Below are positions 90-50,971 of a stretch of DNA of 64,000 nucleotides, in pieces. The DNA is from Clostridiales bacterium (GTDB lineage: Bacteria; Bacillota; Desulfotomaculia; Desulfotomaculales; VENG01): the NCBI GenBank assembly GCA_016278505.1, contig JADQBQ010000028.1:1-64000 (forward strand). The letters are read 5' to 3'. Under the pieces are notes generated by a model, which worked only from the letters and a program-made list of their open reading frames with translations, was not told the origin of the DNA and did no database searches. The position numbers and the translations under genes are program-made. The first letter of the stretch is position 1, and each line of letters begins with the position of its first letter.

Positions 90-104
90 TTTTATCTAAT
101 TTAT

Positions 105-141
105 AAGAACTCCCACTTCTAGAAGTGGGAGTTCTTATTTT
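105..141 (+). terminator. Terminator after tRNA-Gly
   Basis: A perfect 16-bp inverted repeat (105-120 with 121-136) built on ACTCCCACTTCT, followed by a short T-rich stretch. It ends the tRNA-Gly transcript. Confidence 0.9.
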
Positions 142-334: not shown

Positions 335-2419
335 ATGCAGGAAGTTAACAGTATTTGTCTGATGTGCACGGTAAGATGTCCAATTAATGTTAAGGTCAAA
401 AATGATGACGTGGAACTCATTGAGGGAAACCCGCATGCTGCTGGTATTGAAGGTAGTATATGCCCGAAGGGTGCAGCGGGTGTTAGTCTTTTACACGATG
501 AGGAAAGGATTAAGAAGCCTTTGATTCGTTCAGGTCCGAGAGGTTCCGGAGAGTGGCGGGAAGCCAGTTGGGAAGAGGCTCTTGACTACGTGGCTGAAAA
601 CCTTGAAAAGGTTAAAGATAAATATGGCAGCCGTGCTATAGCTCATACCGAGCGTAGTCACTTGAACTCCCATGTCAGCAAAACTTTTATGAAGGCCATT
701 GGTTCACCCAATTACTTTAGCCATGATTCTTGTTGTAAAGGGTCATTAAACACGGCCTTTCGTTCCTTAACCGGGCATGCCGATGGCAAAGTGGGTGTGG
801 ATCTAGGTAAAGCAAAGCATGTCATTTTATACGGGCGCAATTACTTTGAGGCCATTGAGCTTAAAGCAATTAAACAGCTGACCAATGCACTGGAAGAGGG
901 AACCAAACTTACTTATATTGATCCAAGGATTACGGTTACTGCTACTAAGGCTGATGACTACCTTATGATTAGACCCGGAACTGACCTGGCGCTGAACTAT
1001 GCCCTGATGCATGTAATTATCAATGAAGGCCTATATGATAAGGAGTTTGTAAACCGCTGGGTTGAAGGGTTTAAAGAATTGAAGAGTTTTGTTGAGATGT
1101 ATACCCCGGAGTGGGCCGAAAAAGAAACCGGTATCCCGGCGCAGAAAATTATTTCCCTGGCCCGTGAGGCGAGTGAAGCGAAGCCTGCGGTCATTTTCCA
1201 CCACGGGTACCGCAGTGCGCATTATACCAATGAGGTATATTTTAGAAGGTCTATGATTATGCTCAATGCCCTTATGGGTAGTATCGAGACGCCGGGCGGG
1301 ATGTTCTTCAAAAAAGGACTTTCCGATGTTGGTAAAAAGGGTCTTAACAAGCTGACCGGACAAGACCTGCCCAAGGTGACCGAGGAAAGATGTGACGGTT
1401 CCGGGACACCAAGGCTGCCAACCCCTGATCCAAACCATGGTGTGGTCCAATTACTTCCGAAAGCTATCCTGGAAGAGTACCCTTACCCTGTAAAAGCTTT
1501 AACAGTTTGGCGTCATAACCCCATGCTTTCAATTCCTGATTATGAAACTAATAAACGTGCCTTTAATGCATTAGATTTTATCGTAACTATTGATATACAA
1601 TTCAGTGAAACGGCATGGTATTCCGATGTAATTCTCCCTGAATCTATTTACCTGGAGAGAGGGGATTCTATCCAGGAGGCGGATGGCCTGAAACCGAGCC
1701 TGGTTATTCGGAAACCGGCAGTGACACCCAGACATGACACCAAGCCTGGCTGGGAAATCATCAAAGGCATTGCCGACCGGTTGGACATAGGTCATTTTTT
1801 CCCTTACAACTCTGTGGAAGATTTATGGGATTACCAATTAAATGGTACCGGAATCTCATGGAGCGAACTTGAAGAAAAAGGTTTCAAAGTTTTTAGTGAT
1901 AAACCTATTTACTGGGACCGTGAAAACGGGATGAAGTTTAAGACTCCGTCCGGTAAGATTGAATTTATCTCCAGCCTGTTTGAAGATAACAAGATCCCGT
2001 CTCTGCCTGCTTACAAACCTGTTGCTATGCCGGAAGAAGGTTCTTTCCGTTTCATGATCGGCCGTGGTATTGCTCATACTCATGTTTCAACCCAAAACAA
2101 TCCGTTATTAAATGAACTGGTCAGTGAAAACAAACTCTGGATTAACACTAAGCAAGCAGCAAAGTTGGGTATAAAGGAAGGTCAGATGGTAGAAGTTGAA
2201 TCCAGTGCAGGTAAACAAACCCTTAAAGCCTATGTTACAGACCTTATCCACCCGGAGGCTGTTTTTATGCTGCACGGATTTGGGCGAAAAGTGCCGGCGC
2301 AGTCGAGATCCTTTAATAAAGGTGCCAGCGATACTGCATTACAGGAGAACATAACCGATATGGTTGGGGGGAGTCCGGCTCTGCAGCATGTTCACGTAAA
2401 AGTTCGGCCGGTGCAATAG
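335..2419 (+). CDS. Cytoplasmic molybdopterin oxidoreductase, thiosulfate/polysulfide reductase-like
   Basis: Catalytic subunit of the DMSO-reductase superfamily, 694 aa. The N-terminal CLMCTVRCPIN...CPKG cysteines bind a [4Fe-4S] cluster. Molybdopterin-binding stretches follow, with SHDSCCKG near residue 130 giving the probable Mo-ligating cysteine as in PhsA/PsrA enzymes. The C-terminal part (about 565-690) is the dinucleotide-binding domain. There is no twin-arginine signal, so the enzyme should be cytoplasmic, unlike classical periplasmic thiosulfate or polysulfide reductases. It is first of three co-directional genes and has a G-rich ribosome site before the ATG. A sulfur-compound substrate is likely given the genome, but formate or another oxyanion cannot be excluded. 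Confidence 0.85.
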   Translation: MQEVNSICLMCTVRCPINVKVKNDDVELIEGNPHAAGIEGSICPKGAAGVSLLHDEERIKKPLIRSGPRGSGEWREASWEEALDYVAENLEKVKDKYGSRAIAHTERSHLNSHVSKTFMKAIGSPNYFSHDSCCKGSLNTAFRSLTGHADGKVGVDLGKAKHVILYGRNYFEAIELKAIKQLTNALEEGTKLTYIDPRITVTATKADDYLMIRPGTDLALNYALMHVIINEGLYDKEFVNRWVEGFKELKSFVEMYTPEWAEKETGIPAQKIISLAREASEAKPAVIFHHGYRSAHYTNEVYFRRSMIMLNALMGSIETPGGMFFKKGLSDVGKKGLNKLTGQDLPKVTEERCDGSGTPRLPTPDPNHGVVQLLPKAILEEYPYPVKALTVWRHNPMLSIPDYETNKRAFNALDFIVTIDIQFSETAWYSDVILPESIYLERGDSIQEADGLKPSLVIRKPAVTPRHDTKPGWEIIKGIADRLDIGHFFPYNSVEDLWDYQLNGTGISWSELEEKGFKVFSDKPIYWDRENGMKFKTPSGKIEFISSLFEDNKIPSLPAYKPVAMPEEGSFRFMIGRGIAHTHVSTQNNPLLNELVSENKLWINTKQAAKLGIKEGQMVEVESSAGKQTLKAYVTDLIHPEAVFMLHGFGRKVPAQSRSFNKGASDTALQENITDMVGGSPALQHVHVKVRPVQ

Positions 2420-2455
2420 TATTAATGGAAAAAAGAGAAGCCCAGGGGGGATAAT

Positions 2456-2956
2456 ATGAGTATTTACTATTTAAGCCAGGACAACAAAAGATGTATTTCG
2501 TGCCGCGCCTGTCAGGTGCAATGTAAGGTAAATAAGAGACTTGGTGTAGGACCTAAACCTAGCCAGATAGTTGAAGTCGGTCCAGTGGAAAGAGAAGACA
2601 GTCCTCAAGCGAATTATGTATTCCTATCGTGTTTTCATTGTGAAAATCCCTGGTGTGTGGCAGCCTGTCCGAATGGTGCCATGCAAAAACGCTTCAAAGA
2701 CGGTATTGTATATATAAACCATGATCTTTGTGCCGGCTGCAAGAGCTGTATCGTGGCCTGCCCGTGGGGCGCGCCGCAGTGGGATGAGCAAAGAGGGAAG
2801 GCCGTAAAGTGTGACTATTGCAAGGATCGCCTTGATGCGGGATTAAGGCCGGCCTGTGTTACCGCCTGTCCTACGGACAGCCTTAAATTTGATACTGCTA
2901 ACAAGACTGAGAATATCAAACGTAATCGTTATGCAAAAGAGATTTCAAATATTTAA
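2456..2956 (+). CDS. Four-cluster ferredoxin subunit (DmsB/HycB-like)
   Basis: 166-aa electron-transfer subunit of the molybdoenzyme. Four cysteine groups are visible: CISCRACQVQC, CENPWCVAACP, CAGCKSCIVACP and CDYCKD...CVTACP, the standard pattern for four [4Fe-4S] clusters in the beta subunits of DMSO-reductase-type enzymes. The ATG has a strong AGGGGGG site. It lies 36 bp after the catalytic gene and 27 bp before the flavoprotein gene. No membrane-anchor (gamma) subunit follows, so electrons probably pass to the next gene product and not to quinone. Family assignment is firm; the partner is inferred from gene order. Confidence 0.88.
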   Translation: MSIYYLSQDNKRCISCRACQVQCKVNKRLGVGPKPSQIVEVGPVEREDSPQANYVFLSCFHCENPWCVAACPNGAMQKRFKDGIVYINHDLCAGCKSCIVACPWGAPQWDEQRGKAVKCDYCKDRLDAGLRPACVTACPTDSLKFDTANKTENIKRNRYAKEISNI

Positions 2957-2983
2957 AGCCCGTCAACAAAGGAAGTGTTTAAA

Positions 2984-5161
2984 TTGGCAGGAATTGGATG
3001 TAAGGTTAAAGAAACTGCAGATCTTATACAGTCCTTTATTAATGAGCAAAATCATTGCAGTGTTTGCCGTCGCAATTTTATTGTCTGCCTGTCTATCCTG
3101 GAAAATATACGCATCGGCAGGGCTTCCAAGGAGGACTTTGAACACCTCCGTGGTTTGGTTGCCGCAGTTTCTCATAGTTGTGAGTGCGGATCCGGAAAAA
3201 TAATTGCCGAAGAGGTCCTTGATCTTTTAAAAGACAACGCCGATACTTTCTTGGTTCATATCGAGAATAAAGTATGCCCTTCGTCTGAGTGTCCCAAGCT
3301 TGTGCTTGCTCCTTGTCAGGCTGCCTGCCCTGCGGGCATTGATATTCCTAATTATGTTGCCATGATTGGTATGGGCAGACACCGGGAGGCTCTTGAGCGT
3401 ATAAGGGAGGATGTTCCCCTGCCGGGCTCTCTGGGGCGCATTTGTGAGCACCCCTGTGAGAGATCTTGCAGAAGGGGTGAAATTGATCAACCCATTTCAA
3501 TTTGCGCTTTAAAAAGACTCGCCTACGACAAATGCGATCAAAGGGAAAGTAAAGCAACTTCGGTGCCGGATAAAAGGTACGACGAGAAGGTGGCGGTTAT
3601 AGGTGCCGGCCCTGCAGGTCTTTCCACTGCTTATTTTTTAGCGCGCAAGGGTTATCCCGTCACCGTTTTTGAGGCTATGCCTGAACCTGGAGGTATGCTT
3701 GCTTACGGCATTCCCTCGTACAGACTGCCAAGAAAAGTGCTGAGGAATGAGATAGCACGAATTGAAAGCCTGGGCGTGGAGATTAAAGTTAATACCGCAA
3801 TAACCGGGGATAATGGCATCCAATCATTAAAAAAACAGGGGTACAAAGCAATATTTTTGGGCGCGGGGGCTTGGAAAGGTGCAATACCCATTTCCACTGC
3901 CCGGCAGCTTGAAGGTGTCTATGACGGCATCTCCTTTTTGACCGGTGCAAACATTGAATTAAACCAACAAATTGACACCCCAAAAATTAAACTTGACAAT
4001 AAAAAAGTGGTTGTTGTGGGCGGCGGTAATGTTGCTGTTGACGCTGCCAGAGTCTCATCGCGTCTAGGGGCAGAGGAAGTTAGGGTTGTTTATAGGCGTA
4101 CCCGTGATGAGATGCCGGCTTTGCTGGAAGAGATTGAGGATGCGGAAAAAGAAGGTATAATATTTGATTATCTCATTTCCCCGGTTAGTATTAGTGGGGA
4201 GGACGGGAGAGTCGCTTACATTGAGTGCTTGGAAAACAGGTTGAGTGAGCCTGATGCCAGTGGGCGCTGCAAGCCTTTGCCCATCGATAATTCCGAATTT
4301 AAGATGGAAGCTGATATGGTGGTTTTCGCCACCGGCCAAAAGCCTGAGCTTTCGTTTCTGGAAGCAGAAGCTAACACGCAAGAATTGATATCCGTCAAGG
4401 GGAGGCTGGCAGCAGACCCGGTCACCACGGGAACCGCTATACCGGGATTCTTTGCCGGAGGTGATGCAGTAACCGGCCCGGCAAGTGCCATTAAAGCCAT
4501 GGGTGCAGGCAAGAAAGCCGCTGCGGCCATTAATGCGTACTTGAGGGGGGAAAAAACTCCTGCCGGCATTAATTACCCTGTTAAAAGAAGTAGTATCAGG
4601 CCCATTCCCGTGAGTACGGGGGATAGGGCTCAATTAAGTAAAATCAACGTGCACGACCTATATATGGATAGTAAGCAGAATTCCTTTGAGGAAATAATGC
4701 AGGCGGTTAGTGATGATGCTGCAGTTGCCGAAGCAGCACGGTGCTTACGATGCGATCTCTGTATTGCTTGTGGTGAGTGCGTGGGTAACTGCCGAAACGG
4801 TGTTGGTGTAGATGCCCTTGAGCTGGGCTATGTCGATTCTGAGGACCTTAAAACAGATTTTTATCGCCCGGTGAACAAGTGTGTCGGGTGTGCTACTTGC
4901 TCCGTGAATTGCCCTACCGGTGCTATTACCCAGCAAGACAAAGATGGTTTTAGGGAGATGCGCCTGTGCGGGGCATTGATGAGCAGATTACAGCTTGTTT
5001 CATGTAATGTTTGCGGCCATACGTATGTTACAAAGAAATATCTCCAATTCATAAAAGAGAACGTTGGTAATGAATTTAGCTTTAGTCATGGATACATTAA
5101 TGAAAACATTTGCCCGGCATGCTCGGGAGGACGTTTAACTAAAAAAGCTTTTGCCATATAA
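2984..5161 (+). CDS. GltD/NfnB-like NAD(P)H flavoprotein with extra Fe-S domains
   Basis: 725-aa protein related to the glutamate synthase small subunit and NfnB. A cysteine-bearing N-terminal extension (1-95) precedes a GltD-type Fe-S domain (CQAACPAGIDIP...CEHPCERSC, about 108-165). Then come an FAD fold (GAGPAGLSTAYFLARKG, near 205), an NAD(P)H fold (GGGNVAVDAARV, near 345), two [4Fe-4S] motifs (CDLCIACGECVGNC near 587, CVGCATCSVNC near 632) and a terminal zinc-ribbon-like CNVC...CPAC. The TTG at 2984 is preferred because AAAGGAAG sits 8 nt upstream; the GTG at 2975 overlaps that site. It should link NAD(P)H to the molybdoenzyme through the ferredoxin subunit. It is not a true glutamate synthase: no large subunit is present. 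Confidence 0.82.
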   Translation: MAGIGCKVKETADLIQSFINEQNHCSVCRRNFIVCLSILENIRIGRASKEDFEHLRGLVAAVSHSCECGSGKIIAEEVLDLLKDNADTFLVHIENKVCPSSECPKLVLAPCQAACPAGIDIPNYVAMIGMGRHREALERIREDVPLPGSLGRICEHPCERSCRRGEIDQPISICALKRLAYDKCDQRESKATSVPDKRYDEKVAVIGAGPAGLSTAYFLARKGYPVTVFEAMPEPGGMLAYGIPSYRLPRKVLRNEIARIESLGVEIKVNTAITGDNGIQSLKKQGYKAIFLGAGAWKGAIPISTARQLEGVYDGISFLTGANIELNQQIDTPKIKLDNKKVVVVGGGNVAVDAARVSSRLGAEEVRVVYRRTRDEMPALLEEIEDAEKEGIIFDYLISPVSISGEDGRVAYIECLENRLSEPDASGRCKPLPIDNSEFKMEADMVVFATGQKPELSFLEAEANTQELISVKGRLAADPVTTGTAIPGFFAGGDAVTGPASAIKAMGAGKKAAAAINAYLRGEKTPAGINYPVKRSSIRPIPVSTGDRAQLSKINVHDLYMDSKQNSFEEIMQAVSDDAAVAEAARCLRCDLCIACGECVGNCRNGVGVDALELGYVDSEDLKTDFYRPVNKCVGCATCSVNCPTGAITQQDKDGFREMRLCGALMSRLQLVSCNVCGHTYVTKKYLQFIKENVGNEFSFSHGYINENICPACSGGRLTKKAFAI

Positions 5162-5178
5162 TAGTTTATAAGTTTATG

Positions 5179-5206
5179 AAACGCTCTTTTAAAGGGCGTT
5201 TTTTTC
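5179..5206 (+). terminator. Terminator of the Mo operon
   Basis: Stem AACGCTCTTT/AAAGGGCGTT (10 bp, one G-U) followed by seven T residues, directly after the third operon gene. Confidence 0.9.
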
Positions 5207-5318: not shown

Positions 5319-6461
5319 TTGAAAATGAGTGTGGGCTGGAAAATGGGGTCGAGACTGATTCCGGTGTTGGTTATTGCTGCTGGCGTTATGCTTTACATTA
5401 CGAATAAAGTGGTTCCCGGTTTTGAGCTAACGATAGCAGTGGTAACGATTTTTTATTTGCAGCTTTTAGTAGTTATTCTGGCTGTTGTTATTGGCATTAA
5501 AATGTACATAGCTTTTCCCCTGCGACAGATGTGTGACAGATTGGAAGTATTGGCAGACGGCAATTTTACAGGGGAACGAATAACTATAAAAGATGAAAAC
5601 GAAATTGGACGCTTAGCAGGAGTAGTTAATAAAACTCAGGATACAATGGTTAATTTATTGCGGGACATCAATTATGTTTCGGAAAGATTAGCTGAGCAGA
5701 GCGAGAATCTGGCGGCATCCGGGCAGGAAATTAATGCTCTGGTGGAGGAAATGGCCGGTAATACATTGAATATAGCATCTGTAACGGAAGATGCATCGTC
5801 TAACGCACTGCATTTTGCAGACTTTGGTGAAGAAGTCCGTTTAGCTGCGGCAGAGGGAATGACAATGTCTGAACAGACAATGAGTAAAATAAGTGTGGTA
5901 AACGATACTGTTAATGAGATCGCGGGAACCATTGAGAGCTTAAACCAGAATTCAAAGCATATAGCAGAAATAATTACGGTAATAACTCATATTTCAGAAC
6001 AGACTAATTTATTGGCCTTAAATGCTGCCATTGAAGCGGCACGGGCAGGAGAACATGGAAAAGGATTTGCTGTAGTTGCGGAGGAAGTTAGAAAGTTAGC
6101 CGACCAATCGAGTACTTCTGCTGAAGAAATAGCTAAGTTACTAAAAACCATACATATCGAAACTGAAAGTGCTGTGCAGCGGGTGAGGGAGAGCCAGGTA
6201 GAAACCACCGATGGGGTTACCCTGGTCAGGGAAACCGGTAGTCAACTTAAAGACGTGTCAGATAAGGTAGCCGCAATAAATAAGAGGATAAAAGAAACAG
6301 TAAAGGAATTGAAGTTGGCAAGTGAAGGAACGGGTCAGTTAGCATCCAGTAGTGAGGAAATTGCTGCTGGAACCACCGAGGCGGCTCAAACGGCTGAAGA
6401 ACTTGCAGGTATGGCTGAGAAGCTGAGAGCAGTTTTAAACAAATTTGTATTTACAATATAA
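5319..6461 (+). CDS. Methyl-accepting chemotaxis protein without sensory domain
   Basis: 380-aa chemoreceptor. Two membrane helices (about 10-28 and 33-60) are separated by only a few residues, so there is no extracytoplasmic sensing domain. A HAMP segment (about 63-115) and a long signalling helix bundle follow, carrying the conserved tip [20 protein letters not shown]. The start is TTG with AAGGGGTG 8 nt upstream. It would signal through CheA/CheW encoded elsewhere, perhaps sensing membrane or redox state. It stands alone between two terminators, so it is probably monocistronic. The family is certain; the stimulus is unknown. Confidence 0.9.
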
Positions 6462-7052: not shown

Positions 7053-7499
7053 TTAGTGTCCACCGGAGCCTAATATGCCGGATGCTGCCAGAACTAGAAC
7101 TAAGATTTCTGTGATGACAATGGCTAAAAAAGCGTTATCTTTCTTTTTCAGAAAGGCGGGAAGCAACAAGATAGTATACCCAATAACGGTAAGCCCGGCT
7201 AAAAATGCAATTCCGAGGAAGTTAATAAAATCCCCGCTACCTAACATCGTAATCCATTCCCAGCCACCGTGCAATCCAACTTCACTAAGGTATTCAGTAG
7301 ATTGCATACTCCAATATTGTGGCATATCAGCCGGGTTAATATAAGCAGGCATTACTCCGAAAACATACAGAGAAAAGGTAATTGCAAGAACGGCTATTCC
7401 TAACCATGAACCATATAGCAGCAAATTCGCATACTTAACCTGATAATCCGGTACATCTATAGTTTGTGCCGGTTGTCTGTTCTTTTCCTTTGCACTCAT
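7053..7499 (-). CDS. Small membrane protein, partner of TSUP transporter
   Basis: 148-aa protein with a hydrophilic N-terminus and about three membrane helices (near 25-50, 92-114 and 120-142). It resembles the small DUF1634-type proteins encoded beside TauE/SafE transporters, but I cannot confirm the family. The ATG has GGGGGTAGG 3-4 nt upstream and lies 4 bp after the TSUP stop codon, so the two genes are translated from one message. Likely an accessory subunit for anion export or uptake. Confidence 0.65.
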   Translation of the reverse strand: MSAKEKNRQPAQTIDVPDYQVKYANLLLYGSWLGIAVLAITFSLYVFGVMPAYINPADMPQYWSMQSTEYLSEVGLHGGWEWITMLGSGDFINFLGIAFLAGLTVIGYTILLLPAFLKKKDNAFLAIVITEILVLVLAASGILGSGGH

Positions 7500-7503
7500 T
7501 TTC

Positions 7504-8451
7504 CTACCCCCATCCGAGTCCTTCTAAAAGGGACCTGATTCCGGCAAACAGCAGTATGGCAATCACAAGATATCTTACAGCCTTAGGTTTAGCAATAGCT
7601 AAAAGTTTTACACCCACCAGGGATCCTAACATAATTCCCAGAACTGAAGGAACCGCAATGATGGGAAGAACCGCGCCTTTATTTAAGTAGATCCAGGCTG
7701 CTGATGTGTCTGTTATGGAAAGCAAAAATTTACTGGAACCGACAGCGACCTTGAGAGGTGCTCCCATTAACAAATTCAATACCGGGACATTGGCCCAACC
7801 GGCACCCAGCCCGAACATGCCTGCAACTAAACCGATAATAATGAATAGCAAGAAGCCCTGTGGTGTACGCCAAACAGTCCAATCAATTTTTTTATTGTAG
7901 GAGGGCTCCCAGTAAGAGCCGGAAATTTCCAGTTTCTTGGTTAAAGAGTCTCTTTCCCCAACGGTAGGATACTCACTGTTTTTGGAAAAAATAAAAAGTA
8001 AAGCGATCAAGGTAATAGTAATACCTAAACATATTTTTAAGATTGGCACTGGTAGTGCTAGGCCTAAAAAGGCACCCACTATACTGAATGTTGATGCGAT
8101 AAGTGCTACCGGTAATGCCAGCCTTAGGTTGGCCAGGTTTGCCTTCAATAAGCCTGGTCCTGCTGCCAGGGCACCGGATAGCGCTACTATTAAACCTGCC
8201 CCTCGGACGAAGTCCAGGTGGAACGGAAAAAAGCTTCCCACAATGGGAACAAACAGTACACCACCGCCAACTCCGGCTAAAACAGCAGCAATACCCATAA
8301 CGAAAGTAGTTGCAAAGAGGATTAACGGCCACATCCACCAGTCCAGTCCTGAGTTGCCGGCAGCCGCGGCCACGGCCTCACCTGTTCCGCCGGCGTTCGA
8401 CGAGACCGTCATGCCTATGTTATTGATACTATCCAGCAAGCCTTGTATCAT
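7504..8451 (-). CDS. TSUP (TauE/SafE) family anion transporter
   Basis: 315-aa polytopic membrane protein with the two glycine-rich repeats of the TSUP family: GVGGGVLFVPIVGSFFP near residue 60 and GLGAGWANVPVLNLLMG near 225. Family members export or import sulfite, sulfoacetate, taurine-derived and other sulfur or carboxyl anions. The start at 8451 follows GGGAGGG by 8 nt; the longer reading frame (8472) lacks a site. It is first of two genes with the small membrane protein downstream. The substrate is not readable, but a sulfur oxyanion is likely in a sulfate reducer. Confidence 0.85.
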   Translation of the reverse strand: MIQGLLDSINNIGMTVSSNAGGTGEAVAAAAGNSGLDWWMWPLILFATTFVMGIAAVLAGVGGGVLFVPIVGSFFPFHLDFVRGAGLIVALSGALAAGPGLLKANLANLRLALPVALIASTFSIVGAFLGLALPVPILKICLGITITLIALLFIFSKNSEYPTVGERDSLTKKLEISGSYWEPSYNKKIDWTVWRTPQGFLLFIIIGLVAGMFGLGAGWANVPVLNLLMGAPLKVAVGSSKFLLSITDTSAAWIYLNKGAVLPIIAVPSVLGIMLGSLVGVKLLAIAKPKAVRYLVIAILLFAGIRSLLEGLGWG

Positions 8452-8970
8452 GGTCTTTCCCTCCCTAATCACAGCGAAAGCGGTAATAGAATCTAATTTA
8501 TTATTTTATTATTTTCAAATCATTACTTCCTTATTTTGTTTTAGGCCTCACCCCTTCTTAAAATGTTGGTAATGTTAATTTCAGTTTCAGATTTGTGAAA
8601 ATGAGTATAATCTACTGACTTTTTATGCATTTAGCGTGCCAATACAACCGGTCATTGGATGATTATTTATGAAATGGCGCAATCTATGCGGTTTTTGGAG
8701 TGTAGAAATATATGTTAGCAGACAATTACAAGTCTGACTTGTGAAACAATGCTCTTACCTTGTTGTATTTGATACAACTATGTACGATATTAAACACAAA
8801 AAAGTTAGTCAACTAATTACTTGAAGATATTTACATTCTTACAGGTATTTCGACATTTTTTTTGTTTATACTAGAAGTAGATGTTTGAAAAGAATCACAA
8901 AGGTAGGAAGTATAAGGCGGGCTTTAAATTAATCTCTGTAAATACGTGTAATCTGAGAAGGTGGGCTAAA
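8452..8970. other. Intergenic region with two palindromes
   Basis: About 520 bp between divergent genes. Two perfect palindromes lie close together: ACAAGTCTGACTTGT (8728-8742) and GTTGTATTTGATACAAC (8762-8778). A -10-like TATACT sits at 8867-8872. If that is the promoter of the downstream gene, transcription would begin near 8879, which argues for the 8971 start. No gene is seen here. Confidence 0.4.
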
Positions 8971-9738
8971 ATGGGCAAGCAAGGAAAGTTTACATTACGG
9001 AAATACTCCTGGACTTTATTAATAGGTTTTTTAGCTATTGGCTGGTTCTACCCCGCCATAGGTATAATAGCCTTGGTTTGCATGACTGCACCGGTAATTG
9101 TAGCACTTATTACAGGTCGCCGAAAATGGTGCGCGCTGTTTTGTCCCCGGGGTATATTTAATGATGTTATTTTATCTAAAATAAGCCGCAGCCGAAAGGC
9201 ACCGGCTTTTCTTAGATCTGTCTGGTTTAAAGTGATTTTTTTATTGTTTCTGTTTTATACGTTATTTACCGGGTTATCCGCCGCAGACACTATTGCTGAA
9301 ATAGGGCTTGTATTTGTCCGGTTAGTCTCGGTGACAACGGCTATAGGTATTATTGCCGGAGTTGCCTTTCATCAGCGTACCTGGTGTAGTTTTTGCCCCA
9401 TGGGTTTTCTTGCCGGGCAAATGATTAGACTAAGGCAGTGGTGGCATGATAAACCCCGTCGTGAACCGGCCGTCCAATTGAAAACGTCCGGGGTTGTGGT
9501 TTATACGGGTGACCATTGCCCTGCTTGTGCCGAGGTGATAAATGCAATTAAAGAGCAAAATATAGCTTTTAAGGAATACAATATAGACCGGGTTAGGGAA
9601 GCGCGTGAGTGTTTGGCCGGGATCAAAAAAGGATTAGTGGTGCCAACGGTAACTATTAATGATAATGTGGTACAAGCTGGTGATACTAAGGAGCTGCAGG
9701 AAAAGTTAAAGAAGCTGGTTTCTGCTAAGGCGGGTTGA
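8971..9738 (+). CDS. Polytopic CxxFCP membrane protein fused to glutaredoxin
   Basis: 255-aa protein. The first 175 residues hold about four membrane helices and two cysteine motifs, WCALFCPRG and WCSFCPMG, as in NapH/YccM-type electron-transfer proteins, but without their ferredoxin domain. The last 80 residues (VVYTGDHCPACAEVINAI...VVPTVTINDN) are a glutaredoxin fold with a CPAC active site and a cis-Pro TVP-like loop. The fusion suggests thiol-disulfide chemistry coupled to a membrane redox centre. ATG 8971 has GAAGGTGG upstream; an in-frame ATG at 8881 is a weaker alternative. Domain calls are good; the function is inference. Confidence 0.75.
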   Translation: MGKQGKFTLRKYSWTLLIGFLAIGWFYPAIGIIALVCMTAPVIVALITGRRKWCALFCPRGIFNDVILSKISRSRKAPAFLRSVWFKVIFLLFLFYTLFTGLSAADTIAEIGLVFVRLVSVTTAIGIIAGVAFHQRTWCSFCPMGFLAGQMIRLRQWWHDKPRREPAVQLKTSGVVVYTGDHCPACAEVINAIKEQNIAFKEYNIDRVREARECLAGIKKGLVVPTVTINDNVVQAGDTKELQEKLKKLVSAKAG

Positions 9739-30624: not shown

Positions 30625-31863
30625 ATGGCACTACCGAAACCACATGGTCCTGAAGGAAAGCTTAAGCCTCTGTTGCTTTATGGCGGAGAAAGAGAAGCTG
30701 AAATCAAAAAGGCAGAAGGACTGCCGAAGGTGTACATGAGTTCCCGTGAAACTTCAGATATCCTAATGTTGGGTATCGGCGCTTTTACACCGTTGGATGG
30801 TTTTATGAAGGAAAAAGATTTTACCGGTTCTGTTTTTGACATGAAACTCACCGATGGCACAATGTGGCCCATGCCTGTCACTCTTTCCATTACCAAGGAA
30901 GAAAAAGAAGCCCTTAACCTCAAAGAAGGTATGGATGTAGCTTTAATTGACAGGGCAACTGATGAGCTTTACGCTACCATGAAAGTAGAAGAAATTTATA
31001 CGTATGACAAGGAAGCCCAGTGCCGTGAAGTATTCACTACTCTGGACGCTGAAGGACATCCGGGTGTTGGCAGTGTAATGGCACAAGGTGAATTTAACAT
31101 AGGCGGGCCTGTCAAGGTAGTTAATGAAGGTATATATCCTGAAAAGTATCCTGATTATTACCTGTATCCCGAGCAGGCTCGTAAGCTTTTCGAATCAAAG
31201 GGTTGGTCTAATGTAGTTGCTTTCCAAACTCGTAACCCTATGCACCGTTCTCATGAATACTTGGTTAAGTTTGCGCTGGAAGGCGGAGCTGTAGACGGTG
31301 CTTTTATCCACGCCATTGTTGGTGCCTTGAAGCCTGGTGATATTCCCGGTGAAACCCGCGTTAAGTGCTACGAAGTTTTAGCTGAAAATTATTTCCCGAA
31401 AGAGAACATGGCTGTTGGTGTGTACCCGATGGAAATGCGTTATGGTGGTCCTAGGGAAGCATTGCTGCACGCTATATTCCGCCAGAACTGGGGATGTAGT
31501 TACCTGATCGTAGGTCGTGACCACGCCGGTGTTGGCGATTACTATGGAGCATTTGATGCTCAAGATATATTTGACAAGCTTTGGGATGGCGCTCTGGAAC
31601 TGAAGTGCATGAAAATTGCCTGGACATTCTACTGCCACAAGTGCGAAAGTATGGCCAGTCAGCGTACATGCCCCCATGACGCAGAAGACCGCGTAGTAGT
31701 TAGTGGAACTAAGTTCCGCCGCACAATGCAAGAGGGTGGGGATATTAATCCCAAGTTTAGCCGCCCGGAAGTTCTGGAAATACTGAAAGATTACTATAAA
31801 ACTGCTGAAAAAGTGGAAATTAAGAAAGGCGCATTCGAAGATATTCCTGCTACCAAGAAGTAG
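30625..31863 (+). CDS. sat: Sulfate adenylyltransferase (ATP sulfurylase)
   Basis: 412-aa enzyme that activates sulfate with ATP to adenosine 5'-phosphosulfate, the first step of dissimilatory sulfate reduction in the cytoplasm. The nucleotide-binding QTRNPMHRSHEYL (near 200) and GRDHAGVGDYYG (near 296) motifs are intact. The cysteines CHKCES...CPHD (336-350) form the zinc site of the dissimilatory-type enzyme. There is no APS-kinase domain. AGGAGGGG precedes the ATG. A terminator separates it from aprBA, so it is transcribed alone. Confidence 0.97.
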   Translation: MALPKPHGPEGKLKPLLLYGGEREAEIKKAEGLPKVYMSSRETSDILMLGIGAFTPLDGFMKEKDFTGSVFDMKLTDGTMWPMPVTLSITKEEKEALNLKEGMDVALIDRATDELYATMKVEEIYTYDKEAQCREVFTTLDAEGHPGVGSVMAQGEFNIGGPVKVVNEGIYPEKYPDYYLYPEQARKLFESKGWSNVVAFQTRNPMHRSHEYLVKFALEGGAVDGAFIHAIVGALKPGDIPGETRVKCYEVLAENYFPKENMAVGVYPMEMRYGGPREALLHAIFRQNWGCSYLIVGRDHAGVGDYYGAFDAQDIFDKLWDGALELKCMKIAWTFYCHKCESMASQRTCPHDAEDRVVVSGTKFRRTMQEGGDINPKFSRPEVLEILKDYYKTAEKVEIKKGAFEDIPATKK

Positions 31864-31873
31864 CTGTAAAAAC

Positions 31874-31912
31874 ACTGGATGCTCCCATTCGGGTGGCATC
31901 CAGTTAAACAAA
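31874..31912 (+). terminator. Terminator of sat
   Basis: ACTGGATGC/GCATCCAGT outer stem with inner CCC/GGG, followed by a T-rich stretch. Confidence 0.8.
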
Positions 31913-31950
31913 ATTTTTTATAACAAGAAGGATTTGATTAACCAACGTCG

Positions 31951-32261
31951 AAAGAATAAATAGAGCTTGTGCAACTGGATACAAACTGTTAACTAAGCAT
32001 GGTATTTTAAAAATCTGGATTCATTCATTTTGTCGAGAATTGTAGAATTGACTTTAGAATGAATGTTACCAAACATAAAGGTGGATAAATATCAGCTAGT
32101 TGACAGAAATAAAAGAAAGTTGGTCAACAAAGTAAATTCTAAAGAATTTTTGCACAAGAACTGTCATATGCAGGTGAGGCAAAGTAGTATTATTGGCAGT
32201 CGTGCAATGTTAAGATTTTTTGGAGGAGGTGGTTATGGAAAACTTGGTGATGTTATTTTAG
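31951..32261 (+). promoter_or_regulatory. aprB leader: shared motif, inverted repeat and 8-codon ORF
   Basis: The 470-bp sat-aprB gap holds AAAGAATAAATAGAGC (31951-31966, also in the dsrC leader). It also has the spaced inverted repeat GTTGAC/GTCAAC (32099-32104 and 32123-32128) and a tiny ORF MENLVMLF (32235-32261) with a very strong GGAGGAGGTGG site. The latter could be a translated leader peptide about 75 bp ahead of aprB. All three are seen; regulation is inferred. Confidence 0.4.
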
Positions 32262-32336
32262 TTCACCATTATGCTCACCAATTAGCCACTCAAATCCTAT
32301 TAATTCCTAAAAAAAGGGAACAGGAGGTTAGTAATT

Positions 32337-32780
32337 ATGCCAACTTTTGTAATGACTGAAAAGTGTGATGGCTGCAAGGGTCAGGATAAGACTGCTTGCA
32401 TGCATGCTTGCCCCAACGACCTGATGGTCTTGGACAAGGAGAAAATGAAGGCTTACAACCGTCACCCCGAGTACTGCTGGGAATGTCTCTGCTGTGCTAA
32501 GGCTTGTGCGCAACAGGCAATGGACCTGCGCGGATATGCTGACTTTGTACCTATGGGCGCTACTTGTACTCCTCTGAGAGGTTCTGACAACATTATGTGG
32601 ACCATTCGGTTCCGTAACGGTATGATCAAGCGGTTTAAGTTTCCCATCCGTACCAACGAAGAAGGTTCTGCTGTGCCGGACGGCGGATTCCCCGCTGACC
32701 AGGATGACCTCAAGAGCCCTGCTCTGTTCACCGAGCCTGCATCACTCTTGTTAGACGAAGTTCCCACTCCCAAGAAATAA
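32337..32780 (+). CDS. aprB: Adenylylsulfate reductase beta subunit
   Basis: 147-aa ferredoxin-like subunit of APS reductase. Two [4Fe-4S] motifs (CDGCKGQDKTACMHACP and CWECLCCAKACAQQAMD) pass electrons to FAD in AprA. The C-terminal tail (about 90-147) is the extension that wraps the alpha subunit. The ATG follows AACAGGAGG. aprA starts 51 bp later, so the two form an operon. Confidence 0.97.
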   Translation: MPTFVMTEKCDGCKGQDKTACMHACPNDLMVLDKEKMKAYNRHPEYCWECLCCAKACAQQAMDLRGYADFVPMGATCTPLRGSDNIMWTIRFRNGMIKRFKFPIRTNEEGSAVPDGGFPADQDDLKSPALFTEPASLLLDEVPTPKK

Positions 32781-32831
32781 ATCTTGAGAGGGTTAAAACG
32801 CTAAATAATGACCACGGAGGAGGTTAATTCT

Positions 32832-34712
32832 ATGCCAATTAATGTTGAAACCGTAGAAGTTACAACTGATCTTTTGCTAGTTGGTGGCGGCATGTCCGCT
32901 TGTGGTGCTGCCGTTGAAGCATCCTACTGGGCCAAGAAGAACGGCCTAAAGGTAACCTTGGTTGACAAGGCTGCTATGGACCGCAGTGGTGCTGTTGCCA
33001 TGGGTCTGTCCGCTATCAACCAATACCTGGGTGTAGGTAAAGGTAAAAATACTGTTGAGCAGTATGTAGACTATGTAAAACAGGACATGATGGGTATTGC
33101 TCGCGACGACTTGGTATATAACATTGCCCGTCACGTTGACGGTACAGTGCATCTGTTTGAAAAGTGGGGCCTTCCCATTTGGAAAGATGAAAACGGCGAC
33201 TATGTAAATGAAGGTCGTTGGCAGATTATGATCAACGGTGAATCCTACAAGGTTATCGTTGCTGAAGCTGCAAAGAATGCCCTTGGTATGGATAATATTT
33301 ACGAGCGTGTATTCATTATTGAGCCTCTGATGGATGGCGACAGAGTTGCCGGTGCTGTAGGCTTCAGCGTTCGTGAAGAGAAATTCTATGTATTCAAGGC
33401 TAAGGCTGTTATGACCTGCATGGGCGGCGCAGTTGGCGTATTTAAGCCCCGCTCTACTGGTGAAGGTCTTGGACGTTCCTGGTATCCTCCCTTCAGCACA
33501 GGTTCCAGTGCTTACTTCACATTGAGGGCCGGCGCTGAGATGACCTGTCAGGAAGTAAGGTTCATCCCTGTTCGCTTTAAGGATGCATACGGCCCGGTTG
33601 GCGCTTGGTTCCTGCTCTTCAAGTCCAGGGCAACCAACGCATTCGGCGGCGAGTATATGGTAGAGCGTAAAGATGAGCTTAAGAAGTGGGGCCCCTATGG
33701 TCAGGTCAAGCCTATTCCCGCTAACCTGCGTAACTGGCTCGGCATGTTGGATGAATCCGAAGGTAAAGGCCCTCTGTATATGAGGACTGAAGAAGCAATC
33801 CAAAAGATTGCCGATGCATATAAAGATGATCAGAAAGCCTTCAAGAAGAAGATGAAGGAACTGGAAAGTGAAGCATGGGAAGACTTCTTGGATATGACTA
33901 TTGCACAGGCTCTGCTGTGGGCAGCCACCAACACCGAGCCAGAGAAAAAGTCATCCGAGATCTGTGCTGCTGAACCTTACTTCATCGGTTCACACTCCGG
34001 TGCTACCGGCGCTTGGGTAAGCGGTCCGGAAGATATTGCTCCGGCAGAGTACAACTGGGGCTACTCCAACATGACTACCATTAAGGGTCTGTTTGCAGTG
34101 GGTGATGCCTCCGGTGCATCTGCTCACAAGTTCTCCTCCGGTTCCTGCACTGAAGGTCGTATTGCTGCTAAGGCCGCAATTCGCTTCATTGTTGAGAATA
34201 ACGATCAGCCTAATGTTGATGCTGCCAAAGTAGAAGAGCTCAAAGAGCTTACCTTTAGGCCCATGAATCTCTTCGAAGAGCACAAAGACTTCACTACTGA
34301 CCCTGAAATTAACCCTAATTACATTCTGCCGAAGATGTTCATGTTCCGGATCCAGAAGTGCATGGACGAATACGTAGGCGGTGTATCCTCTAACTTCACT
34401 ACCAACGAATCGAAGTTAAACAGAGCTATGGAGCTTCTGGAAATGATGAAAGAAGACTCTGAGAAGTTGGGCGCACGTAACCTGCACGAGCTCATGAGGT
34501 GTTGGGAGAACATCCACAGAATGTGGCAGGCTGAATCCCATACCCGTACCATCATGGCACGTAAGGAAACCAGATGGCCCGGTTATTATTTCAGGGCTGA
34601 CTACCCCACCATCGATGAAGATAACTGGAAGAAGTTCGTCAACATCAAGTGGGATCCTAGCAGCAATGAGTGGGAAATCATTGAGAGGCCGGTTATCGAC
34701 CTTCTGAAGTAG
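32832..34712 (+). CDS. aprA: Adenylylsulfate reductase alpha subunit
   Basis: 626-aa FAD enzyme reducing APS to sulfite and AMP. The FAD-binding LVGGGMSACGAAVEA lies near residue 17. MDRSGAVAMGLSAINQYLG and the FAD-contacting SGSCTEGRIAAKAA segment near the end of the flavin domain are conserved. The ATG at 32832 follows GGAGGAGG; an in-frame ATG at 32808 lies upstream of that site. Length is near the family norm (about 610-660). Cytoplasmic; electrons arrive through QmoABC. Confidence 0.97.
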   Translation: MPINVETVEVTTDLLLVGGGMSACGAAVEASYWAKKNGLKVTLVDKAAMDRSGAVAMGLSAINQYLGVGKGKNTVEQYVDYVKQDMMGIARDDLVYNIARHVDGTVHLFEKWGLPIWKDENGDYVNEGRWQIMINGESYKVIVAEAAKNALGMDNIYERVFIIEPLMDGDRVAGAVGFSVREEKFYVFKAKAVMTCMGGAVGVFKPRSTGEGLGRSWYPPFSTGSSAYFTLRAGAEMTCQEVRFIPVRFKDAYGPVGAWFLLFKSRATNAFGGEYMVERKDELKKWGPYGQVKPIPANLRNWLGMLDESEGKGPLYMRTEEAIQKIADAYKDDQKAFKKKMKELESEAWEDFLDMTIAQALLWAATNTEPEKKSSEICAAEPYFIGSHSGATGAWVSGPEDIAPAEYNWGYSNMTTIKGLFAVGDASGASAHKFSSGSCTEGRIAAKAAIRFIVENNDQPNVDAAKVEELKELTFRPMNLFEEHKDFTTDPEINPNYILPKMFMFRIQKCMDEYVGGVSSNFTTNESKLNRAMELLEMMKEDSEKLGARNLHELMRCWENIHRMWQAESHTRTIMARKETRWPGYYFRADYPTIDEDNWKKFVNIKWDPSSNEWEIIERPVIDLLK

Positions 34713-34734
34713 TTAGTTTTTATACAGCGAAATA

Positions 34735-34762
34735 GGGCCCGTGGCCGTTTGGCCACGGGCCC
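34735..34762 (+). terminator. Terminator of aprBA
   Basis: Perfect 12-bp stem GGGCCCGTGGCC/GGCCACGGGCCC with a GTTT loop; the T-run is weak. Confidence 0.8.
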
Positions 34763-34847
34763 GTATTTAACCTGAGTTAGCTGCAGGCAATGGTTGTAAA
34801 TTTTTGTGGGAGCTGGATGAAAACTTTGTAATGCTGAGCTGTTAAAT

Positions 34848-34879
34848 CCAGGTCCTGCTTTGGCAGCCTGGGCTTTTTG
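34848..34879 (+). terminator. Terminator-like hairpin upstream of qmoA
   Basis: CCAGG..CTGC-TTTG-GCAG.CTGG with CTTTTTGATTTTT after it. It lies 125 bp before qmoA and could be a second terminator or an attenuator. Confidence 0.55.
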
Positions 34880-35004
34880 ATTTTTCGATGGATATGTTAA
34901 TCTGTCTCAATTTTACGTAGAATTTACGGAATTTGAGTTAGCCTTTGAGAGAACCTTCCCGGTTAACAGCAACATTCAAAGACATTGAAATGTGGGTGAT
35001 AGAA

Positions 35005-36270
35005 TTGGCAAATAAGAGTATATTGGTTGTTGGTGGGGGAATTAGTGGGCTAACTGCTGCTGTAGAGGCCGCTGAAGTAGGCTATGAAGTCTTTTTAGTT
35101 GAAAAAAGTCCCTACTTAGGCGGTAGAGTGGCACAATTAAACCAGTATTTCCCCAAGCTTTGTCCTCCCAACTGTGGTTTGGAGATAAACTTCCAAAGGA
35201 TTAAAAATAATCCTAAAATTAGATTCATTACCGATTCGGTAGTAGAGAATATAGCCGGGGAAGCAGGAAACTTTGACGTAACGGTTAAAACCAATCCCAG
35301 GTATGTTAATGAAAAATGTACCGGATGCAATAAATGTGTTGAGGTGTGCCCTGCAGAGCGGGACAATGCCTTTAATTACGGTTTAAATAAAACCAAAGCT
35401 ATTTACTTGCCGCACCAGTTCGCTTTTCCTATGAGGTATGTCATCGACTGTGACGCCTGTCAGGGAAGTGAATGTGGAAAATGCGTGGAGGCTTGCCCAT
35501 ATGGTGCTATTGATTTAAATATGGAAGCCAAAAATACCACGTTTAATGTAGGTGCAGTTGTATGGGCTGCAGGCTGGGATCCTTATGATGCTAAGAAAAT
35601 CAGCTATTATGGGTTTGGACAGTCTGAAAACGTCATTACTAACGTTATCATGGAACGGATGGCTTCTGCCAACGGTCCTACTGAGGGTAAAATCGTTCGT
35701 CCTTCCGATGGTAAAGAAGTTAATAGCATTGCCTTTATCCAGTGTGCCGGTTCGAGAGATGAAAATCATTTGAACTGCTGCTCATCGGTGTGTTGCCTTG
35801 CTTCGTTGAAGCAGGCTACTTATGTGCGAGAGCAGTATCCCGATGCTAAAATATCCGTGTACTTTATTGATATCAGGGCCCGTGGTAAGTTTGAAGACTT
35901 CTATACAAAAGTACAGGCAGAAACTGGTTTGAATCTTATTAAAGGTAAGGCCGGGGATATTAAGGAAGACCCCCAGACAAAACAATTAGTTGTCCATGCT
36001 GAAGACCAAGCGGCAGGTAAGATTACAGACGAGAAATATGACTTGGTTGTTCTTGCTACTGGTATGGCCCCCACCACCAGGGACTGCAAGATTCCAGCTG
36101 ATGTATCTTATGATCAAGACGGATTTGTTGCCTCTGATCCTCAAGTACCCGGAATATATGCTGCCGGTTGCGTAAAGCGTCCCATGGACGTAGCTGCATG
36201 TGTTCAGGACGCCACGGCTGCGACACTAAAAGCTATTCAATCCACGGTGAGGGGGCAGAAAAATGGATAA
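35005..36270 (+). CDS. qmoA: QmoA, quinone-interacting membrane-bound oxidoreductase subunit
   Basis: 421-aa HdrA-like flavoprotein of the complex that passes menaquinol electrons to APS reductase. The FAD motif ILVVGGGISGLTAAVEAAEVG is at the start. Fe-S cysteines lie at CTGCNKCVEVCP (near 104) and CDACQGSECGKCVEACP (near 149); CCSSVCCLASLKQA is typical of HdrA proteins. The TTG at 35005 is preferred, with GGGTGAT upstream; a longer in-frame start at 34945 has no good site. Its stop overlaps qmoB by 8 bp. Confidence 0.95.
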   Translation: MANKSILVVGGGISGLTAAVEAAEVGYEVFLVEKSPYLGGRVAQLNQYFPKLCPPNCGLEINFQRIKNNPKIRFITDSVVENIAGEAGNFDVTVKTNPRYVNEKCTGCNKCVEVCPAERDNAFNYGLNKTKAIYLPHQFAFPMRYVIDCDACQGSECGKCVEACPYGAIDLNMEAKNTTFNVGAVVWAAGWDPYDAKKISYYGFGQSENVITNVIMERMASANGPTEGKIVRPSDGKEVNSIAFIQCAGSRDENHLNCCSSVCCLASLKQATYVREQYPDAKISVYFIDIRARGKFEDFYTKVQAETGLNLIKGKAGDIKEDPQTKQLVVHAEDQAAGKITDEKYDLVVLATGMAPTTRDCKIPADVSYDQDGFVASDPQVPGIYAAGCVKRPMDVAACVQDATAATLKAIQSTVRGQKNG

Positions 36271-38476: not shown

Positions 38477-38555
38477 GAAGTATTGCAATTTAGTAAATGA
38501 GAGATGGTGGGCAGTGTAAAATGATGCCCATCACCTCTCTATAAAACAAAAAAAG

Positions 38556-38605
38556 AGACGGCTTTCTTAGAGCCGTCTTGAGCTTCAAAACAGTAATAGT
38601 ATATT
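38556..38605 (+). promoter_or_regulatory. Hairpin and candidate promoter of qmoC
   Basis: Stem AGACGGCT/AGCCGTCT (38556-38578) without T-run, immediately followed by TTGAGC, 16-nt spacer, TATATT (38578-38605). The 242-bp qmoB-qmoC gap therefore may hold a weak stop and a separate promoter for qmoC. Confidence 0.45.
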
Positions 38606-38718
38606 AAATTGTGTTGGAGAAAAATAAAATGGAAAGCCTCCACTTGATTAGTGAATTATAAGGATCGTTGGAACAATTGAACTTGTGTCAGAATGATGGT
38701 TTTGAAAGGAGGCAGAAG

Positions 38719-50857: not shown

Positions 50858-50971
50858 AACTATGTCTAAGGGGGGTGAGACCTTACAGAGTTTGTATACT
50901 CCGTTAATGACTAACAAATAAGAAAAAATGAATAAATTAGTTAATTGAACCGAAGAAGGAGGAGGATTCCA

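Follow-up and report, generated by a model that had tools for sequence, protein, structure and literature searches.

Near the start of a 64,000-nucleotide stretch from the genome of a Clostridiales bacterium (contig JADQBQ010000028.1; the whole stretch is called the window here) lies a three-gene operon, A-B-C, which probably encodes a soluble cytoplasmic NADPH:thiosulfate oxidoreductase, a reading to which we give a probability of roughly 0.58. From the sequences of the three products and of their relatives we infer the formation of a complex, the preference for NADPH, the path of the electrons, thiosulfate as the substrate and the direction of the reaction. Classical thiosulfate reductases face the periplasm and draw their electrons from menaquinol, from which these must be pushed uphill. 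With a leaderless PhsA, thiosulfate would be reduced where the Apr and Dsr enzymes work, and a gene for an NADPH-type flavoprotein beside a monophyletic leaderless PhsA would supply the anchor-less enzyme's source of electrons. The electron source of anchor-less thiosulfate reductases is thereby made testable with one purified complex.

The three genes lie on the + strand with gaps of 36 nt (A/B) and 18 nt (B/C), and form the three-gene unit described in a first-pass annotation of the window at exactly positions 335-5161 (Table 1). The window starts at the first base of the contig; since a tRNA-Gly gene and a terminator-like hairpin precede the operon, the 5' end of the operon appears not to be cut by the contig edge. 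The hairpins of Table 1 come from a consensus scan that found 9 sites where 6.2 were expected, and each alone is weak evidence. Among 60 genomes searched, its own included, A recurs at 67-78% identity in 11 others, and the order A-B-C, being kept in all 11, is not due to chance. Neither the operon nor the open reading frames (ORFs) scanned up to position 12335 gave a Pfam match to a PhsC/NrfD-type domain, which agrees with the absence of a membrane anchor subunit claimed in the first-pass annotation.

A belongs to the PhsA/PsrA lineage of the DMSO-reductase superfamily. It has Molybdopterin, Molydop_binding and Fe4S4 domains (Pfam), and its best NCBIfam model is PhsA (NF012032, 632.5 bits), the second-best being a formate dehydrogenase (FDH) model at 311.7 bits. 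An AlphaFold2 model of A (predicted local distance difference test score, pLDDT, 91.3) best matches chain A of the Thermus polysulfide reductase (PSR; 2vpw_A, Z 42.6, 678 aligned positions, root-mean-square deviation 2.0 Å), which is also the best sequence match in the PDB; next come ArrA (Z 37.3), acetylene hydratase (36.2) and FDH (36.1). In a tree of 119 Mo subunits (a quick IQ-TREE search, supported only by the Shimodaira-Hasegawa-like approximate likelihood ratio test, SH-aLRT), 65 leaderless subunits, A among them, group together in a single clade (support 100). The PhsA proteins of E. coli SE11 and Campylobacter concisus make up its sister group (support 98); the other Tat-bearing Phs/Psr proteins fall outside this grouping, and FDHs are far away. 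Within the leaderless clade the tree separates two subclades, that of the window (29 sequences, support 99) and a second one with Desulfovibrionaceae and others (36 sequences, support 98). The phylogeny that the first-pass annotation had called for thus places A beside PhsA and not within the FDH clade. DmsA and some other sequences form long branches in the tree, ArrA is represented by 7 of 8 loci, all under the ArrA cut-off, and two truncated genes (L116, L120) and one split frame (L121) are absent. The loci, numbered with L, comprise the 80 best-scoring of at least 572 confirmed relatives plus further genomes, a sample that leans to near kin and in which several contigs end near A.

A has no room for a twin-arginine translocation (Tat) leader, as the first-pass annotation had noted, because its open frame of 702 codons exceeds the 694-codon ORF by only 8 codons. 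All 27 exported-like loci (L121 and the 26 of the tree) have the RR motif of such leaders 5' of the start. Among the 66 leaderless loci the motif is found in three (L036, L080, L085), each time in an over-long ORF start where no hydrophobic stretch reaches the strength of the weakest among the exported. Since the leaderless proteins form one clade among RR-bearing exported relatives, the loss of export most simply happened once. A search of the same genome listed just two proteins other than A, a Sec-type FDH and a distant one of 666 aa.

The predicted Mo ligand, C134, is at a position that holds Cys in 65/65 leaderless sequences. Position 107 (H145 of PSR) is Arg in all 65 and Lys in both PhsA proteins of the sister pair, His or Thr in the 25 other exported sequences, and Ser in the five FDHs picked for comparison. 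The His that follows the Cys or selenocysteine ligand in those five FDHs is absent from all 65 leaderless sequences (residue 135). The assignment of A to the thiosulfate/polysulfide reductase type, proposed at first pass, is upheld by the tree, by these residues and by the neighbourhood described below, from all of which a sulfur compound is the likely substrate of A.

B has 16 Cys in four sets, and its first PDB match is the B chain of Thermus 2vpw; it is a predicted PhsB/PsrB-type four-cluster subunit, and the four sets of Cys accord with the four-cluster ferredoxin partner proposed earlier. Another ferredoxin gene resembling B (65-67% identity) is present at L034:4303-4842, with like genes in L035, L039 and L040, about 3-4 kb from A. 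Nearby are a CitMHS-type permease gene and genes that resemble, by eye, nitroreductase and UspA.

The core of C is a GltD/NfnB-type unit with Fe-S, flavin adenine dinucleotide (FAD) and NAD(P)H sites (Fer4_20, Pyr_redox_2), followed by C-terminal Fer4-type sites. The best structural matches of its model (pLDDT 83.8) are subunits that contain GltD, those of NfnABC (9n5v, Z 47.2; 9bov, 46.6) and of StnABC (8oh5, 44.4); GltD (39.3) and NfnB (38.4) match more weakly. The first-pass picture of a GltD/NfnB-like flavoprotein with extra Fe-S domains and a zinc-ribbon-like end is sustained by Pfam and by Cys conservation; absent from that description was an N-terminal NuoF-type NADH_4Fe-4S domain. The ten Cys at 590-646 are enough for two ferredoxin-like clusters and one further pair. 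StnC carries lysine 170 at the cluster beside its FAD, where NfnB has glutamate (PMC10482914; for this and the other papers cited, we draw on the portions of text available to us). By alignment, from which the numbering was counted, K170 corresponds to K180 of C. Lysine occupies this position in 39/39 C-type proteins aligned, and in 34 of the 35 proteins of the C-tree alignment, with Glu only in the genome's own NfnB-like protein. The second key residue of StnC, C114, is Ile 124 in C, and the counterpart of R239 is R250. By its sequence C has a Stn-type flavin site, for which the lysine is the marker. C would use NADPH over NADH, judging by what is known of the GltD family's nucleotide site.

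Genes of type C (E <= 1e-30) accompany A in all of the 28 loci from the window's subclade but one (L061), hence in 27, in 10/36 of the second subclade, where some are distant or on the opposite strand and several contigs end early, and in 0/26 exported loci. A TauE/SafE gene of one type, for which L034 supplied the query, occurs in 15/28, 16/36 and 0/26 loci, respectively, and at an identity of at least 47% in 14/28, 8/36 and 0/26; these counts include the locus that supplied the query and four genomes that are nearly identical, and the Fisher p of 1.5e-6 overstates the association since the rows are not independent. Further along the window, sat, aprB, aprA and QmoABC-like genes stand in a row (30625-39912), and the genome encodes a dsrA that scores over its cut-off. 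The three Qmo-like proteins are under the model cut-offs, the QmoA- and QmoB-like ones matching HdrA models and the QmoC-like one reaching 196 of 300 bits. The organism is a sulfate reducer by gene content, and because of the sat, aprBA and Qmo-like set and dsrA, sulfite formed from thiosulfate has an intracellular sink.

In the mechanism that we propose, NADPH would pass a hydride to the FAD of C. Single electrons would then move from FAD to the K180 cluster, to the other GltD-type cluster, to the ferredoxin-like pair of C and on to B, whose four clusters would hand them to the [4Fe-4S] cluster of A and the Mo/W-bis-molybdopterin guanine dinucleotide (bisMGD) centre held by C134. There thiosulfate would be cleaved with two electrons to sulfide and sulfite, and the sulfite would enter the Dsr pathway in the same compartment. 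The standard potential of thiosulfate/(sulfite + sulfide) is about -402 mV (PMC10100899). With thiosulfate and sulfide each at 1 mM and sulfite at 1 uM we compute -225 mV. Menaquinol lies at about -74 mV, and exported PhsABC spends proton-motive force on the thiosulfate step. The -225 mV couple is within reach of NADPH and not of menaquinol; since the couple is under standard conditions too low for menaquinol, and NAD(P)H can drive it if Dsr holds sulfite low, exchanging the anchor for a flavoprotein makes energetic sense. The soluble form would need no proton-motive force for the thiosulfate step. The soluble NAD(P)H-dependent sulfur reductase of the first-pass annotation is favoured by the leaderless A, the missing anchor gene and the gene for an NAD(P)H-type partner; a sulfur substrate is likely.

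Several observations weigh against an NADPH:thiosulfate oxidoreductase. A scores below the 694-bit cut-off of the PhsA equivalog model NF012032, as do 9 of 10 relatives scanned, only the Campylobacter concisus PhsA being above it (1118 bits). The position of PSR R332 (292 in A) is Tyr in 29/29 sequences of the window's subclade, Trp in 35/36 of the second and His in both PhsA proteins, a difference that makes the pocket of A unlike both the PhsA and the PSR references. The window's own TauE (7504-8472) lies outside the subfamily conserved near the relatives; it was rejected as the conserved neighbour for belonging to a different subfamily, and the second TauE of the window (50945-52255) is no close match either. 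dsrA is found in 11/11 other genomes with A and in 48/59 overall, which is not significant (p 0.08). Phs levels were low during thiosulfate disproportionation, and the authors doubt a major role of Phs there (PMC9751629).

A minor possibility to be taken seriously is that the same complex reduces another substrate with NADPH; candidates are polysulfide, carrier sulfane sulfur, tetrathionate and other oxyanions of chalcogens, among them selenite, which SrrA reduces. PsrA, PhsA and SrrA share one lineage (PMC10100899), the solved structure closest to A is a polysulfide reductase, and position 292 resembles neither reference. The sister of the leaderless clade, however, is PhsA and not the Psr-like sequences, the basic residue at 107 is common to the leaderless and the two PhsA proteins where the 25 other exported ones have His or Thr, and a nearby gene for sulfur oxyanions (TauE/SafE) would better fit thiosulfate or sulfite.

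It is improbable that the enzyme runs in reverse or reversibly, forming thiosulfate from sulfite and sulfide with reduction of NADP+ as a relief reaction, or that it disproportionates thiosulfate, and does not serve respiration. The potential of NADPH is above -402 mV. With a standard potential of the couple near that value (PMC10100899), and thus below NADPH, the reverse reaction is favoured at high sulfite, and Desulfofundulus strain 435, with a phsA gene that may belong to the leaderless clade, is reported to dismutate thiosulfate (PMC11206085). Dsr in the same cell should nevertheless hold sulfite low.

Flavin-based bifurcation or confurcation, in which NADPH (or NADH with reduced ferredoxin) would be coupled to thiosulfate and ferredoxin, strikes us as more improbable still. 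C is a GltD/NfnB-type protein, its relatives in L062 and L068 carry an intact NuoF module with flavin mononucleotide (FMN) site on the same GltD core near A, and its C-terminal ferredoxin-like sites could dock ferredoxin. On the other hand, K180 stands where NfnB has glutamate, with lysine in all 39 C-type proteins, and the FAD of StnC at a like site was concluded to be non-bifurcating, by an argument that rests on the geometry of R239 and is beyond the reach of sequence (PMC10482914). C has no FMN domain, and the operon's gene list and Pfam matches include no NuoE-like or NfnA-like gene. The first-pass suggestion that the enzyme is possibly bifurcating finds no support, given K180 and the missing FMN domain and NuoE-like subunit, and K180 and the absent FMN domain lowered our estimate that the window's copy bifurcates.

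Most of the Mo enzymes that work in the cytoplasm with an NAD(P)H module are FDHs, and an FDH model is the second-best NCBIfam match of A (311.7 bits), but the tree, residue 135 and a PhsA score twice the FDH score leave a very small chance that A is an FDH or another non-sulfur Mo enzyme, a candidate rejected on the tree and the active-site residues.

The relatives of C bear on its origin. In L062 and L068 a whole NuoF FMN domain (Complex1_51K, 4e-44 and 7e-47) with its GRGGxGF loop intact is fused to the GltD core near A, whereas L052, L053, L085 and L098 keep the NuoF region without the loop (2e-11 to 6e-4). No NuoF region was detected in C of L050, L055 and L056; the window has only the Fe-S relic, and L044 not even that. 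The genome's own HydB (L147) shares 41% identity with C across residues 17-595; in its 1034 aa NuoF and GltD are fused (Complex1_51K, NADH_4Fe-4S, GltD), and its FMN domain is intact. Trees of C place the C proteins of the window's order (10 sequences, support 100/100) and those of Desulfobacterota in separate groups; holding all Phs-linked C proteins together was not rejected (approximately unbiased test, p-AU 0.443), nor was holding window-type C together with the hydrogenase HydB (p-AU 0.324). A later C tree was built without L046 (far and differently built) and without L087 and L146 (long branches that meet), all three with lysine at 180. A single linear decay of C from an intact NuoF to the window type was dropped, given the separate groups; the NuoF forms in the relatives are stages, not one line. 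The make-up of C suggests that a Mo enzyme took over modules akin to those of bifurcating hydrogenases, and in living relatives the loss of the FMN site can be seen at several stages.

Some further forms of C and its surroundings may be recorded. HydB is encoded among the HydABC-type [FeFe] hydrogenase genes at L147:1623-9560 (contig C48 of the same genome), 5' of which lies a gene for a sigma-54 activator with an [FeFe]-hydrogenase-like domain. In L049 (10662-12841, Peptococcaceae bacterium BRH_c8a) the C gene is in two frames (420 + 306 aa), naturally or by assembly error. Genes for small proteins of 250-300 aa related to the C-terminal part of C occur, for example, at L056:13337-14089, whose product, the sole one scanned with Pfam, has Fer2_4 and ferredoxin domains; similar small genes are found in L055, L057, L058, L062, L065, L068, L073, L074, L075, L083 and L125. 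Four genomes of one genus have a C with a C-terminal extension of about 200 aa (Table 1). The extension in L034 matches the MCP signalling domain PF00015 (1.1e-22). The extended C genes are directly followed by an MCP gene, and the hairpin tip of the MCP-like extension is partly eroded (an Arg is lost in L039, for example). A search of the open-licence PubMed Central (PMC) papers for a chemoreceptor fused to an oxidoreductase found none.

In a broader picture, which we regard as unlikely, the leaderless clade would be the cytoplasmic thiosulfate reductase that has been missing in sulfate reducers, and modules taken from bifurcating hydrogenases would link it to pyridine nucleotides. The L062/L068 branch, with intact FMN and FAD sites and PhsA, would be flavin-confurcating, two donors driving the -402 mV couple, and the window type would be its one-flavin relative; in L034, L035, L039 and L040 the MCP domain may let chemotaxis read the redox state of the enzyme.

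The genes 3' of the operon are an MCP gene, a YlbF-type gene, a gene for a small membrane protein with no Pfam match and TauE; the 148-aa protein encoded at 7053-7499 has no Pfam match. The chemoreceptor-like gene (MCPsignal, TTG start, 5319-6461) lies just 3' of the operon; it was not counted as an operon member, a terminator-like hairpin standing in between. Besides the window, MCP genes occur in 5/28 loci of the window's subclade, 3/36 of the second and 0/26 exported ones. At 8881-9738 one predicted chain combines a C-terminal glutaredoxin domain with a Fer4_5 domain, which we take to be as in NapH/CcoG-type proteins.

Table 1. Features of the A-B-C operon and its boundaries, with the extended C genes of four other loci
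Feature	Position	Strand	Remarks
Terminator-like hairpin, 16 pairs, 5' of the operon	103..138	+	after tRNA-Gly (15-89)
A	335..2419	+	694 aa; catalytic subunit of PhsA type with Mo/W-bisMGD, leaderless
N-terminal [4Fe-4S] site of A (C8, C11, C15, C43)	356..463	+	conserved in alignment
Codon for the predicted Mo ligand of A, C134	734..736	+	aligned with C173 of Thermus PSR
B	2456..2956	+	166 aa; ferredoxin subunit resembling PsrB/DmsB, with 16 Cys for four predicted [4Fe-4S]
C	2975..5161	+	728 aa, GTG start; GltD/Stn-type FAD-NADPH flavoprotein with extra Fe-S domains
Relic of NuoF C-terminal domain in C (NADH_4Fe-4S, residues 27-93; C28, C31, C69, C71), FMN domain absent	3053..3253	+	Pfam, 1.7e-5
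Fer4_20 (GltD Fe-S) domain of C, with K180 (codon 3512-3514) at the Stn-type cluster-ligand position	3284..3544	+	
Double Rossmann domain of C for FAD and NAD(P)H	3587..4510	+	Pfam, structure match
Cys-rich C-terminal part of C with ten Cys (C590-C646), predicted to hold two ferredoxin-like [4Fe-4S]	4742..4912	+	
Four-Cys zinc-ribbon-like end of C (C677, C680, C713, C716)	5003..5122	+	in 10/10 aligned close orthologues
Terminator-like hairpin, 11 pairs, directly 3' of C	5178..5202	+	between operon and chemoreceptor-like gene (5319-6461)
Extended C genes	L034:10804-13608, L035:10721-13525, L039:4986-7823, L040:4190-6988		

The operon shares with PhsABC (for example, that of E. coli SE11 plasmid pSE11-3, L133) homologous A/PhsA and B/PhsB, the Cys ligand of Mo and a sister position in the tree, but lacks the Tat leader and the quinol subunit PhsC, and has the gene for an NADPH-type flavoprotein instead. 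An A-B pair is also what it shares with sulfate reducers and disproportionators (Dde_1076:1075, Desulfolithobacter Phs, Desulfotignum Dpo_3c03810-20), whose pairs probably belong to the same leaderless clade as A. The name PhsAB is in use for such pairs (PMC4215793; PMC4046663), and such genes are also listed elsewhere (PMC11206085). PhsAB without subunit C of Phs is thus already known from sulfate reducers; the new part is the flavoprotein C, and the available portions of the published accounts name no electron-input partner. Phs without subunit C has been described in a disproportionator, in an account whose available part reports that no functional analysis of PhsAB had then been done (PMC9751629). 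In Desulfovibrio alaskensis G20, PhsAB (Dde_1076:1075) matters to a small degree on thiosulfate, with fitness values of -0.79 and -0.30 (PMC4215793), which counts in favour of a cytoplasmic thiosulfate reductase through its presumed membership in the leaderless clade. A survey of the superfamily gives PsrA, PhsA and SrrA as periplasmic only, in the part available (PMC10100899), and among the open-licence PMC papers listed no title or opening of an abstract points to an NAD(P)H-linked PhsAB complex, a scope that leaves out most subscription papers, including older thiosulfate reductase enzymology.

For the flavoprotein, the likeness to StnABC and NfnABC consists of the GltD-type FAD/NADPH domain, the Lys at the cluster position and Z scores of 44-47; the module of the window, however, stands beside a Mo enzyme and has no FMN/NuoF or NuoE parts. 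The HydABC-type hydrogenase of the same genome has an [FeFe] hydrogenase as its catalytic partner and, in HydB, an intact FMN domain, unlike C. C resembles NfnB of NfnAB, but has Lys for Glu at the cluster ligand, and the operon has no NfnA-like gene. The activity that we propose, a cytoplasmic NAD(P)H-dependent reduction of thiosulfate or polysulfide, is like that of NSR of Thermotoga maritima; NSR, however, is a single flavoprotein, and the available part of its description mentions no Mo subunit (PMC9431562).

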